The notes under the pieces are model-generated. The model was not told the origin of the DNA. It saw nothing but the letters and a program-made list of their open reading frames with translations, and made no database searches. Source: an uncultured Pseudomonadota bacterium (GTDB taxonomy: Bacteria; Pseudomonadota; Gammaproteobacteria; Steroidobacterales; Steroidobacteraceae). Taken from it: a stretch of DNA of 64,000 bases. Location: assembly GCA_903862885.1 (NCBI GenBank), contig CAIOZU010000016.1, positions 62,001 through 126,000 of the forward strand, written 5' to 3'. A program made the position numbers and the translations under genes. Below, piece after piece: positions 52,738 to 56,573 of this stretch; within the stretch, counting starts at the first letter, position 1; the number at the start of each line of letters is the position of its first letter.

Positions 52738-52776
52738 AAAGGCCGGCTACGAAAGTGGCTGGCCTTTTTCTTTTCT
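52738..52776 (+). terminator. Rho-independent terminator, probably bidirectional
   Basis: AAAGGCCGGC and GCTGGCCTTT pair over ten positions (one G-T pair) with a 9-10 base loop, followed by TTTTTCTTTT on the plus strand. On the minus strand the same stem is followed by TTTGGTTT. The stop codon of the leftward solute-binding-protein gene lies inside it. Confidence 0.85.
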
Positions 52777-54357
52777 GACCCGAAAGTACTTTGAATAATT
52801 ATGGTTCATAGGTGAAATGATTGAATTATCAATGCGCGGACTAATGAACCGTCGCGTAACAGGAAAATACAACGGCAAAACAACTTGAGCCCTCAGCAGC
52901 TCCTTCTCAGCTGACGCCAATATCACGTACCGCTCCAGAGTCGAACGAGCCCGCGCAGAGCGGGCTATCAAATCATCAAAACCAGCATCCGAGTACCCCG
53001 AATCATTCTGATGACTTGATGAAGAAAACACGTCTAAAAAATTAACTGGGTCCTGAAAGTCTGCGTTCCACCCCTCCGAGATCACATCCCACCGCCCACC
53101 ATCTGCCCGCGCCGCCAAATAGGATCGATAGTCTAGGTAAACAAGTTGCACGTTAACGCCTAGTACTTCGTGCCACATGGCACTGACGGCCACGGAAACC
53201 AAGCGCCGCCTCGAATCTGTGGGGCACATAAGCACCAGTGATAATGGCTTGTCTCTCGAATAGCCCGCTCGTCGATACATCGCCTTTGCAACCTCGACTT
53301 CAGCTTCATGGCGTCGCGGATTCGCATCAGAGGCGGGATCAATAGTTGGATATGCGCCCATACCCATCGGTACGAAAGAAAATGCTGGTTGTTCCCCGCC
53401 GCCAAGCACCTGCAAAGCAATTTTCGAACGGTCCACCGCCAGAATCAATGCTGTACGGAGTTCGGCGCTATCCTTTAGAGGCGACTTCCTCATGTTAAAA
53501 ACGTAGTAGACAACAGATAGCTGTTGAGCTACTTGAATATCCGAACGAACTCCATGACCGGAACCAACGAATTCAGCGTCAGGAACTGAATCAGTTACAT
53601 CAATAGCTCCGGACTTGAACCCTCGACTTTGCATAGCGGAATCAGCGATCGGCAGGTAAGTCACTTTCTCGAAAGATATAGCGCGGGACTCTCGATAAGT
53701 TGGGGATTTACTCAAAATAATTTTCGACCCCGGCACCCACTGCCTCAAAATATATGGCCCATTCGAGACAACTCCAGGCAGGCGGTCGTTATGCATGCTG
53801 GCTGGAAGTTCGTAACGAGGATACGCCACTGAATTTGATAACAGCATCAAGAAATAGGGCGTTGGTGACAATAGTTTAATAACAAGGTGATACGGCCCGA
53901 CTTCATGTACGGCAAGAAAGGACCGCGGCTTTATACCGTCGAGAACTTCTTTCGCACCAGCAATTGATTTTAAGAAATCGGCTTGCGGACTAACAGTACT
54001 AGGGTCAACGGCGTGCTGCATCGCGCGCACGAAGTGGGCGGCTGTAACTAACTCGCCGTTAGACCATCGTCCATCGCGTCGTAAGAAGAAGTCATAGGTT
54101 AGTCCGTCCTCGCTAACTGTCCAGCTTTCAGCCGCGCCAGGAATTACCTCTCCTGACGGTGACTCTACGGTTAACCCCTCAAAAAGATCGCGCAGAACCT
54201 CAAAAGAGAACGTGTCTCCTGCACGTTGTGGGTCAAGCGACACAGGATCCCCGCCTATAGCTCTGACGAGCGCCTCCCGGCCCATGTCTTCCGTCGCCAC
54301 ATTACCCACCTTGCCAGAGCACGCCACAATTACCAAAATACATAGAAAACGCGACAT
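52747..54357 (-). CDS. Orphan peptide-type ABC solute-binding lipoprotein (family 5)
   Basis: 536 residues from the Met of MSRFLCILVIVACSG; VIVAC gives a lipobox with Cys13. The rest is an OppA/DppA-like binding protein: GGDPVSLDPQRAGDTFSFEV, DLFEGLTVESPSGEVIPGAAESW (in parts), TYDFFLRRDGRWSNGELVTA, SNGPYILRQWVPGSKIIL, RTALILAVDRSKIA and SEGWNADFQDPVNFL. No permease or ATPase genes are nearby, so it must share another transporter or act as a receptor. Base composition and codons (AGA, ATA) are more AT-rich than the flanks. An in-frame Met 32 codons upstream is possible; neither start has a clear ribosome-binding site. Confidence 0.87.
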   Translation of the reverse strand: MSRFLCILVIVACSGKVGNVATEDMGREALVRAIGGDPVSLDPQRAGDTFSFEVLRDLFEGLTVESPSGEVIPGAAESWTVSEDGLTYDFFLRRDGRWSNGELVTAAHFVRAMQHAVDPSTVSPQADFLKSIAGAKEVLDGIKPRSFLAVHEVGPYHLVIKLLSPTPYFLMLLSNSVAYPRYELPASMHNDRLPGVVSNGPYILRQWVPGSKIILSKSPTYRESRAISFEKVTYLPIADSAMQSRGFKSGAIDVTDSVPDAEFVGSGHGVRSDIQVAQQLSVVYYVFNMRKSPLKDSAELRTALILAVDRSKIALQVLGGGEQPAFSFVPMGMGAYPTIDPASDANPRRHEAEVEVAKAMYRRAGYSRDKPLSLVLMCPTDSRRRLVSVAVSAMWHEVLGVNVQLVYLDYRSYLAARADGGRWDVISEGWNADFQDPVNFLDVFSSSSHQNDSGYSDAGFDDLIARSARARSTLERYVILASAEKELLRAQVVLPLYFPVTRRFISPRIDNSIISPMNHNYSKYFRVRKEKGQPLS

Positions 54358-54580
54358 TATTGCCAATATGCGACTTGCGCTGCAGCAAAGCGATCCTACA
54401 GGCAGCCGATATCTGCCCAAAAATCCTAAAAATGCAGCTATACAAAATTTCATTCGTAGTTGATTATTTAAGACGCGGCGGGCTAAAGGTCACCGCAGTC
54501 ATGTGCCCGTAGCCAACATTAAACGCGCGAATAATTGATGAAATGCAGCCCCAATCACACACTTCATAGAGGACACCTCA

Positions 54581-54829
54581 GTGAAACTCCCAGCAAGACA
54601 AAAATGGACCGTTACCGTACTCGTTACCTTAGGTTGCTTTTTGCAGGCTACAACACAAGCGGCCCCCCACACTACAACGTCGGCCCCTCGACCCACATCA
54701 ACTGCCCCAGCGATCGGCATATCCGGTAGTGGTCGTTCCGCTATAGGCATATCGGGCAGCGGCGTTGCAAAGCCAACACAAGGCGGTAAAACAACAGCAC
54801 CTTCAACAGGCATATCTGGCAGCGGCTAA
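54581..54829 (+). CDS. Small secreted protein with three GISGSG motifs
   Basis: 82 residues from a GTG that has AGAGGA about seven bases upstream. A signal peptide (basic start, hydrophobic VTVLVTLGCFLQ, likely cut after TTQA at residue 27) leaves a mature part of about 55 residues rich in Thr, Ser, Pro, Ala and Gly. GISGSG occurs at residues 46-51, 56-61 and 77-82; the last is the exact C-terminus. No Cys remains after processing and no known domain is seen. It is divergent from the solute-binding lipoprotein and upstream of two DUF6502-like genes. I do not recognise it; a secreted peptide precursor or surface-associated peptide are both possible. Confidence 0.6.
   Translation: MKLPARQKWTVTVLVTLGCFLQATTQAAPHTTTSAPRPTSTAPAIGISGSGRSAIGISGSGVAKPTQGGKTTAPSTGISGSG
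54716..54825 (+). repeat. Three DNA copies of the GISGSG-coding unit
   Basis: GGCATATCNGGNAGNGG occurs at 54716-54732, 54746-54762 and 54809-54825. Differences are mainly at third codon positions, which suggests the protein motif, not just the DNA, has been kept. Confidence 0.8.
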
Positions 54830-54896: not shown

Positions 54897-54985
54897 CTCA
54901 AACGCGAGTTACGCTACACTAAGCGAACACTCAGCAACAAGCACTAACGCGGCACGTCCCCATCTCCTAAAGCCCAGGGACCATA

Positions 54986-55813
54986 GTGGATCCATCTTCT
55001 AGATCAACGTCCCGCAGGTTAGTTTTTTCTTTCCTAAAGCGGCTCGCGTCAACCCTCATACCGATCGGCTATAGCCTCGGCGACTTTATCGTCGACGCAA
55101 AAGCGGCGTTCGTCGACGCGGCCGTAGATCACATTACAAATCGTGGCGATAGACCGTCAGATGCCCGCATCGCAATCCTAACGGGGCTATCACGCGCTGA
55201 GGTCCGAAAAATCCGCTCAATGACCGGCGGCGCACCATCAGCACTAAACACACAGCGCGCCGAACGAGTTATGCATGGTTGGTTTACAGATGCCCGCTTT
55301 GTTGACATGAAGGGCGCACCAAGCGCTCTACCCATAAAGGGCGAAATATCGTTTGAATCACTTGTTAAGGAGTATAGCGGTGACATGCCGTACAGAGCTG
55401 TACTTAACGAGTTGCTAGCAGGAGGAATGGCGTCAAAAACGGGGGCCCGTTACGTGCAAGCGCTGCGCCGTCATTACTTAACTCCGGCACACGATGCAAG
55501 GAGCGACCTACAGCTATTATCACTGGATGCGGAGGTCCTTCTGCAAAAAAAGTTAGAAGAGAATTCTGGCTCTGTCCGGCGGTTGGAAGTTGAATTTAGC
55601 TCAACGCTTCCATCATCAACAGTGCGCAATATAGATTTACGTATAGAGCGGTTTCTCGATGCTCTCAGCGATTACCTCCATGGCAGTTCCATAGAGACTA
55701 AGACTAATTTAGACAATAACGAGGAGCCCTCCTCCACATTTAGAATACTTATAGCCCACCGCGAGCTAGGCAACCGGAGGAGCAATGTCGCCAAAGAAGA
55801 CTATGAAAACTAA
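54986..55813 (+). CDS. DUF6502-like protein
   Basis: 275 residues from a GTG with AGGGA six bases upstream. The N-terminal 90 residues are helical and include ARIAILTGLSRAEVRKIRSM, which looks like a helix-turn-helix. RVMHGWFTDARFVDMKGAPSALP (in parts), FESLVKEYSGDMPYRAVLNELL and a GGMASKTGARYVQALRRHY strand pair follow the pattern I associate with DUF6502 proteins. Function of the family is unknown. Its end overlaps the next gene by 29 bases. AT-richer than the flanking ligA and parvulin genes. Confidence 0.7.
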   Translation: MDPSSRSTSRRLVFSFLKRLASTLIPIGYSLGDFIVDAKAAFVDAAVDHITNRGDRPSDARIAILTGLSRAEVRKIRSMTGGAPSALNTQRAERVMHGWFTDARFVDMKGAPSALPIKGEISFESLVKEYSGDMPYRAVLNELLAGGMASKTGARYVQALRRHYLTPAHDARSDLQLLSLDAEVLLQKKLEENSGSVRRLEVEFSSTLPSSTVRNIDLRIERFLDALSDYLHGSSIETKTNLDNNEEPSSTFRILIAHRELGNRRSNVAKEDYEN

Positions 55814-56573
55814 AAATAAATCAGCAAGGGGAAAATCCGGCTTTGGTGACACACGGACGGTAAAGCCTGCGCGCGATCATCTTCTAGCTGAGATTGACCA
55901 CCTAATCACTCAACTCACTGGTGTAGGCGAAAAAGTAAAGAAAACTGGACGCCCACTACTTAACAGAGAGCTCTCAGCATCCTACACCCGCATAATGCGG
56001 GCATCACTAGCGCTCAAGCAGTGGCATGAAAATGAAAATTTTGTTGGCAAGGATGGTTCGCCGAGGAGGCTAACTCAAAATGAGTTAGAAAAATTAGCCT
56101 ACTTAGTATCTAGCAGCGATCCAGAGATCGGTTTGCTTATCGAAGATCTAATGATGTCTGGATTAGTTTCAGAGACAAAGGGAACCTATAGACCAGATGG
56201 AAGGTCAGCGATGGTGGAGTTAGAAAGCGAACTGGCTCTAGCCTACGCCACAGTCGCGATATCAAGACTAATCGAAACGATCGCAAAGAATCTGGACGGA
56301 ACTTCAGAAAAACAATTTGAGCGCCAAGTAAGCGAGGTCAGAATTCGCGCAAAAGATTTTCCGATTTTTCTTAACTTTGTGAAAAATCAGGGCGAAGCGT
56401 TTATAGACACAATCGATGATTGGCTATCCAAGAGAGAAGTATCTACACCCCTGCATGGCGATATAAAAGTTGGTGCTGCGGCATTTGCATTTTCTACACC
56501 ACCAGAAGAAAAAATGGCTTCTTTTAAGAAAGAAAAGCCATCAAGTCAGCCTGCGAAATTACGAGGACCTTAA
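55785..56573 (+). CDS. Second DUF6502-like protein, lacking the N-terminal part
   Basis: 262 residues; GGAGG lies five bases before the ATG. After a basic start, [43 protein letters not shown] and [16 protein letters not shown] repeat the order of elements in the upstream protein (a W, F.D..G.P..L, then L...G.V....G.Y), so the two are probably distant paralogues. The helix-turn-helix-like segment is not obvious here. The C-terminus is Lys/Pro-rich and its last 50 bases overlap the convergent ligA gene. Function unknown. Confidence 0.6.

Follow-up and report, generated by a model that had tools for sequence, protein, structure and literature searches.

A candidate allelic peptide-recognition cassette with DUF6502 proteins beside ligA in an uncultured Steroidobacteraceae bacterium

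Introduction

Short peptides that are read by a matching receiver are known from several bacterial systems. In the RRNPPA and arbitrium systems of Gram-positive hosts, short linear peptides enter via Opp and are read by cytoplasmic TPR receptors, and in the ComQXPA pherotypes the genes for signal and receiver are exchanged jointly. The pherotypes of Bacillus are described as distinct communication groups inside one species (PMC4408185), and ComQXPA as an isoprenyl transferase, a pre-peptide, a histidine kinase and a response regulator (PMC4008528). A further case is HetR, which according to its published accounts is switched by RGSGR-type peptides of PatS (PMC4649674) and by HRGTGR peptides of PatX (PMC7476756), both having a G-[ST]-G core (PMC4649674, PMC7377430, PMC7476756). 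Here, we describe a locus that can be compared with these systems, namely a cassette of a binding lipoprotein, a secreted repeat peptide and two DUF6502-like proteins in a stretch of 64,000 nucleotides (hereafter the window) from an uncultured Steroidobacteraceae bacterium (assembly GCA_903862885.1, contig CAIOZU010000016.1, positions 62,001 to 126,000).

The cassette consists of a gene for a family-5 solute-binding lipoprotein (SBP5; 52747..54453, minus strand) and three genes on the plus strand, encoding an 82-residue precursor with a signal-like N-terminus, a short linker and three exact copies of GISGSG (54581..54829), and two DUF6502-type proteins that we call B (54986..55813) and C (55785..56573) after their clades; a third clade, A, is found at related loci. 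A first-pass annotation of the window had placed these four open reading frames (ORFs) in an AT-richer block between a parvulin gene and ligA, and both the ORFs and the block are borne out, the GC content being 49-53% in each of the 1-kb bins between 52 and 57 kb (five bins) as compared with 55-64% in the other bins of the window. From sequence comparison with relatives and from predicted structures, we lean, with fair though incomplete confidence, towards an allelic cassette for the recognition of a secreted peptide, in which DUF6502 proteins would be the type-matched receivers.

Results

Two types of the cassette are found beside ligA in the window's genus. Type I carries GISGSG at all four loci with an array (the window, L042, L044 and L045) and type II carries GSMG[ST]G at all three (L050, L051 and L053), while two further loci (L043 and L046) have type-I B and C genes with the array not in view. 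It is well supported that the precursor, B and C, together with A where present, have been replaced jointly between conserved flanks, as seen in two sister pairs among these relatives. In the first pair, L044 and L050, LigA is 85% identical and the flanking DNA 83.6% over 6.7 kb, whereas B and C share only 22% and 23%. The other halves of the same two genomes, L145 (G114) and L166 (G105), align over the 4.9 kb leading to the cassette with 86.5% identity, but their A proteins are only 31% identical; A of L145 instead shares 83% with its type-I counterpart at L042, and A of L166 67% with its type-II counterpart at L051. The second pair, L045 and L053, lacks A at both loci and repeats the pattern, with 85% identity in LigA (partial sequences), 23% in B, 22% in C and 80.9% over 4.5 kb of flank; both flanks align (81 and 74%), whereas precursor, B and C fail to do so. 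Type II also occupies three separate places on the LigA tree, which, like the trees of DUF6502-type and SBP5 proteins below, was read without its support values. Since the flanks align, the precursor and A, B and C differ by type and type II is scattered on the LigA tree, it is the whole operon that is exchanged. A variant with A left in place during the swap of precursor, B and C was rejected, as A is swapped too.

The peptide itself is strikingly constant within each array. An ORF that repeats one [GSA]xxGxG-type hexapeptide three times or more was present at 27 of 40 DUF6502 loci, and several of the 13 array-less loci are cut by a contig end. Among 40 arrays there were 25 different hexapeptides. 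Over the whole hexapeptide, 21 nonsynonymous and 913 synonymous differences were counted within arrays, as against 451 and 293 in the adjacent spacer codons; these counts refer to 40 hand-chosen arrays in which a copy needed at least four of six matches, and when copies were picked by [GSA]xxGxG only, 421 of 429 were exact. Left out of the 40 were L060, L071, L097, L162 and L165, as well as repeat views of contigs or genomes (e.g. L031, L033, L036, L084, L085, L099, L103, L145 and L204). Two assemblies probably have a single array broken over two contigs, G105 with its pieces at L050 and L166 and G114 with its pieces at L044 and L145. Because the search pattern demands glycine at the fourth and sixth positions and restricts the first and fifth, the constancy of positions 1, 4, 5 and 6 between genomes arises partly by construction, and that of the two glycines carries no information. 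The test with copies picked by [GSA]xxGxG covered positions 2, 3 and 5. Within arrays they showed 8 nonsynonymous and 401 synonymous differences (L077 additionally left out), and position 3 takes 11 residues across 39 arrays. Neutral homogenisation as the sole cause of the identical repeats is thus out, given that synonymous codons differ widely and spacers vary, and the copies are not merely recent duplicates, since their codons vary while the hexapeptide stays. Each copy appears to be held to the same sequence by selection, even though that sequence changes between genomes. In the window, the three GISGSG copies differ by five synonymous and no nonsynonymous changes, and the arrangement recurs in other genomes, so that the observation is more than chance. 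A co-occurrence of these genes elsewhere had been put forward as a check by the first-pass annotation, and other genomes do combine DUF6502 clusters with GxxGxG repeat proteins and SBP5 proteins of a dedicated clade.

The precursors vary considerably in size. Long forms combine a signal-like N-terminus (judged by eye throughout) with an N-terminal domain and up to 34 repeats, whereas short forms of 69 residues (GVSGGG, three copies) and 84 residues (SILGSG, six copies) contain little beyond signal and repeats. The window precursor resembles the latter and ends on the last glycine of its third repeat. Spacers are irregular in length within a protein and variable in sequence. A match to DUF5666 (PF18914) was above the cut-off in one of ten repeat proteins and below it in three, which only partly supports the DUF6502-DUF5666 link put forward in the first-pass annotation, and the window precursor had no Pfam match. 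The window genome contains six matches to the GISGSG pattern, of which three lie in the precursor and the others in no GISGSG-bearing ORF of at least 40 residues. Contigs often end inside arrays (L050, L057, L081, L154, L155, L165, L166 and L204) or at a linked SBP5 gene (L193, L195 and L201), and draft assemblies thereby hide precursors and split the locus. At another locus, L120 (G150:C187), nine copies of GSLGTG lie beside B and C and four copies of SVIGGG beside an A-like gene, with an SBP5 gene between them, possibly representing a locus of double specificity.

The DUF6502-type proteins of the window and the 40 loci (n=107) fall into clades A (29), B (39) and C (39). The window B protein matches DUF6502 (PF20112) with 73.7 bits at a cut-off of 27, so the first of the two proteins proposed as DUF6502-like is a clear member; the window C protein had no Pfam match at E<=1, remains below DUF6502 membership and joins the family only via an iterated profile and the tree, as a separate clade. 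A helix-turn-helix is predicted in A and B and the motif is gone in C. In the window B protein it lies at about residues 59-80, followed by a winged-helix-like middle part, which agrees with the earlier suggestion that this protein is a DNA-binding component. The predicted models of B and C reached a pLDDT of 81 and 76. PF20112 was found in 93 of 150 genomes of the window's family and in none of 14 controls, and 99 of the 369 genomes sampled from the class have it as well; relatives of the window C protein occur in 60 of 98 genomes. A frequent gene order is A, secreted repeat protein, B and C, other loci being rearranged, and the neighbours of the clusters include ligA or an acyl-CoA-synthetase-like gene (named by a look at the sequence). 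Named contigs with A belong to Gammaproteobacteria, including Steroidobacteraceae, Woeseiaceae, Chromatiales and Thioalkalivibrio; in the window assembly (G000, 2.79 Mb in 73 contigs), a search with an A query returned only its B and C genes. In the literature, we found no paper on DUF6502.

Two arrangements around A deserve mention in their own right. Genus g19 (L057, L058 and L152-L155) has two tandem A genes before the array with B and C not in view, and its hexapeptides differ between most species (GIIGSG, GIRGTG, GVDGGG, GVEGSG and GLQGGG at two-A loci with an array). In Thioalkalivibrio sp. XN8 (L104), a 21-copy GIDGSG array lies between two A-like DUF6502 genes, and this strain could serve as an experimental model.

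The lipoprotein matches SBP_bac_5 (PF00496) with 224 bits (E 3.8e-66) at a cut-off of 32.4. An SBP5 gene is present at 12 of the 40 DUF6502 loci. Viewed from the other side, 41 genomes have 66 SBP5 genes, at most four per genome, and 15 of the 66 lie at DUF6502 loci (binomial 3e-12, assuming 2% of each genome as target), a count made by eye with 53 of the 66 loci viewed. On the tree, 16 linked SBP5 loci (including L102) form one clade and all 17 unlinked ones fall outside it, and the newly found linked locus L142 fell inside. Of 20 further loci, 16 were outside this clade and four inside (L193, L195, L201 and L204); these four are all at contig ends with DUF6502 not in view, one of them beginning inside an ASVGTG array, and assembly breaks at arrays may explain such orphans. 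The first-pass annotation had called the window lipoprotein an orphan, which stands for its surroundings, as there is no permease among the tested cassette neighbours (parvulin, precursor, B, C and ligA), and needs qualification for the genome. Although OppC_N (PF12911) had no match in G000, an OppB-type protein (PF19300) exceeded the cut-off on one other contig, beside another SBP5 gene, and the notion of a genome without a peptide permease was rejected for that reason. A second SBP5 clade, apart from the DUF6502-linked one, occurs in many genomes of the family (L107, L110, L111, L121, L122, L124 and L126).

Looking across the class, the next ORF after DUF6502 encodes a G[IVLFM][GSTIRDE]G[ST]G motif at 15 of 20 loci, 11 of them with a single GIGGTG, which lends the suggested DUF5666 association some further support. 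This test covered ORFs of at least 60 residues with the motif anywhere and is not strictly comparable with the background of 21 in 1923 ORFs, for which ORFs of at least 200 residues with the motif in the first 120 were used. In two distant class members (L185 and L186), the motif occurs two or three times next to DUF6502 (GISGTG and GIGGTG; GFGGTG three times), which may represent a stage between the single motif and the array.

In the window, the cassette is flanked by ligA (56524..58530, minus strand), a conserved flank in the genus, and on the other side by a parvulin-type lipoprotein gene (51804..52712, plus strand; Rotamase_3, E 2.2e-21) that adjoins the cassette in relatives as well; parvulin was rejected as a component of the system and looks like a fixed flank. 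Between the parvulin and lipoprotein genes, a 13-pair stem-loop with a T-run (52738..52767) is a probable terminator. The C gene shares 29 bp with B at one end and 50 bp with the convergent ligA at the other. The 3' end of ligA is overlapped by 38-60 bp by the type-I-like C genes (window, L042-L047), and the type-II C genes (L050, L051 and L053) have no such overlap, which is a further mark of the two types.

The lipoprotein likely starts at an internal methionine about 96 bases downstream of the listed start, near 54357, which is followed by a lipobox-like IVAC, as read from the sequence. This start leaves about 223 bp between the divergent genes (54358..54580), in agreement with the length given in the first-pass annotation, and the gap forms a candidate control region with one imperfect palindrome (54518-54535). 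The precursor starts with GTG, preceded by AGAGG (by sequence inspection). Promoter-like sites in the region showed no excess (3 versus 4.1 in shuffles) and terminator-like sites were not clearly above expectation (7 versus 5.2 +/- 2.2), while a listing of inverted repeats in five divergent regions, without further alignment, gave no obvious common operator. A minus-strand ORF over the 82-residue gene (54499-54813) has no Pfam match and mirrors the repeats, and we take it as a shadow ORF. Rfam scanning of 51.5-57 kb gave nothing at the gathering score, NCBIfam nothing meaningful for precursor, B and C, and PADLOC no match at E<=0.01 for six proteins.

Discussion

Taken together, the data are best accommodated if the precursor is exported by the Sec pathway and presents a short peptide (GISGSG in the window) in several exact copies, which would be released in free form, captured in the periplasm and taken up with the help of the dedicated lipoprotein. 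The type-matched DUF6502 proteins, i.e. the B and C pair in the window, or possibly A at loci that have it, would then bind and read the peptide. B could act as a DNA-binding regulator working like the cyanobacterial HetR, with C as a partner that retains the rest of the fold and has lost the helix-turn-helix, and the target genes may include the divergent promoter. The first-pass annotation had left open whether the circuit serves sensing or scavenging; the linkage of its parts holds, and recognition looks likelier than scavenging, given that the hexapeptide stays exact inside each protein and its replacement goes hand in hand with that of the DUF6502 genes.

Which protein would read the peptide is narrowed to a limited degree. 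The swap of A supports joint exchange, yet it widens the choice of receiver. L047, from another genus, has B and C nearer to type I, A nearer to type II and the hexapeptide SILGSG, with isoleucine at position 2, so this one locus hints that B and C rather than A match the peptide. Serine at position 2, set against the clade of B, gave 7/7 versus 1/14 (Fisher test on hand-entered counts, uncorrected for relatedness).

Several observations weigh against recognition by type-matched DUF6502 proteins. Within the genus A follows the type as well, and the swap alone cannot narrow the receiver to B and C. The arrays of L060 (AITGTG and AIIGTG) and L092 are mixed, and no cleavage site is apparent between repeats. 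As to uptake, 28 of the 40 loci show no SBP5 gene, the SBP5 gene of L162, with a repeat gene about 3 kb away, is not a member of the linked clade, and no permease was found among the tested neighbours, so that the permease and ATPase genes that accompany the binding protein of an Opp importer are missing at this locus. The lipoprotein also lacks a split by type, the window protein sharing 44% with the type-II protein of L051 and 38% with the type-I protein of L046; as its sequence ignores the two types, it need not read the variable residues. Among family loci with mostly a single DUF6502 gene (L127-L146), only six of 20 had the motif directly downstream, five as GIEGTG and one as a GISGSG array. 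Finally, the likeness to HetR is uneven: B superposes poorly on HetR (TM 0.28, rmsd 13), C does so with an rmsd of 6-11 in most VIA-align rows, plain Foldseek of C puts HetR 30th (E 0.39), and the profile searches of PDB (A1, A3) list no HetR chain at E<=10.

Among other explanations, the arrays could be a flexible extracellular polymer or adhesin in which the hexapeptide is a structural or self-association unit, DUF6502 merely regulates and the swap is the replacement of a surface-antigen operon. The long precursors with their N-terminal domain and up to 34 repeats, DUF5666 in some of them, the class-wide DUF5666-like lipoprotein partners with usually a single GIGGTG, and the swap of the whole operon including A all agree with such a surface or matrix protein. 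Irregular, varying spacers are nevertheless ill suited to a regular fold, and the short forms of 69-84 residues, the single exact hexapeptide per protein that differs between sister species and the peptide-type SBP5 clade at many loci speak against it as well, and we consider the structural explanation unlikely.

It is also conceivable that the window cassette is decaying and that its precursor is what is left of a larger repeat gene and has lost its function. That A was not found in the assembly, that only three copies are left and that DUF5666 gives no match point in this direction and are the reason why the three-copy precursor may be a shrunken remnant, which would count against recognition in the window too. 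On the other hand, the three copies differ by synonymous changes only, precursor, B and C have intact reading frames, L045 and L053 likewise lack A with the whole stretch from parvulin to ligA in view, and short precursors stand beside full clusters elsewhere (L047 and L055), all of which makes decay a distinctly improbable explanation. An antimicrobial or toxin-like multi-core peptide with DUF6502 and the lipoprotein as self-protection, and swaps as polymorphic competition loci, would fit the joint allelic replacement between conserved flanks and the several identical cores per precursor, but it is very unlikely given that an enzyme for modification or export was not seen among the cassette genes, PADLOC found no match, the hexapeptides are small and glycine-rich and B and A have a DNA-binding motif.

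If peptide recognition by DUF6502 proteins is correct, an uncharacterised family gains a ligand class and a mechanism, and Gammaproteobacteria provide a new form of signalling by linear peptides with matched receiver alleles. It would also make the origin of the HetR fold testable and yield sharp predictions, as the 25 hexapeptides are paired with candidate receivers.

Comparison with known systems

Searches of the literature on peptide pheromones, pherotypes, HetR and HetR in Gammaproteobacteria gave no paper that we recognised as describing this system, and a search by hexapeptide strings gave nothing relevant. One of the nearest likenesses is to HetR with PatS, PatX and HetN in cyanobacterial heterocyst patterning, which likewise comprises a helix-turn-helix protein with extra domains and a peptide with a G-[ST]-G core. 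The fold of HetR has DNA-binding, flap and hood domains. For B, HetR ranks first in Foldseek (E 1.2e-3), and for C it takes rows 1-5 and 7 of VIA-align 2, including the first match, with methyltransferases, aligned across some 120 columns, at the head of the Foldseek rows for C. What GISGSG has in common with the HetR peptides is limited to the G-S-G core, and the arginine on both sides is lacking. The cassette further differs by belonging to a different phylum, by its tandem arrays in a secreted precursor, by the associated SBP5 protein and by up to three paralogues, one without the helix-turn-helix. As a tentative extension, which we put forward as possible but doubtful, DUF6502 could represent a HetR-like superfamily beyond cyanobacteria, in which a HetR/PatS-type circuit works as self-recognition, with secreted hexapeptides as "passwords", capture by the lipoprotein, matched DUF6502 readers, C as a receptor without DNA binding and whole alleles exchanged between species.

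Compared with ComQXPA, the cassette has DUF6502 proteins in place of a kinase, and it differs from RRNPPA and arbitrium in its gammaproteobacterial host, in another receptor fold and in the many identical copies per precursor. The lipoprotein is akin to OppA-type proteins in its PF00496 domain and its similarity to the OppA model, yet it scores 299 bits where the OppA equivalog cut-off is 947, has no adjacent permease and belongs to its own DUF6502-linked clade. A further related arrangement is the class-wide pair of DUF6502 and a DUF5666-like lipoprotein, which likewise has a GxxG[ST]G-type motif downstream of DUF6502 and differs in mostly having, across the 20 loci, one GIGGTG near the N-terminus of the lipoprotein, no long arrays and one DUF6502 gene. 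The arrays may thus be an expanded and diversified form of an older partnership between DUF6502 and GxxG[ST]G proteins.

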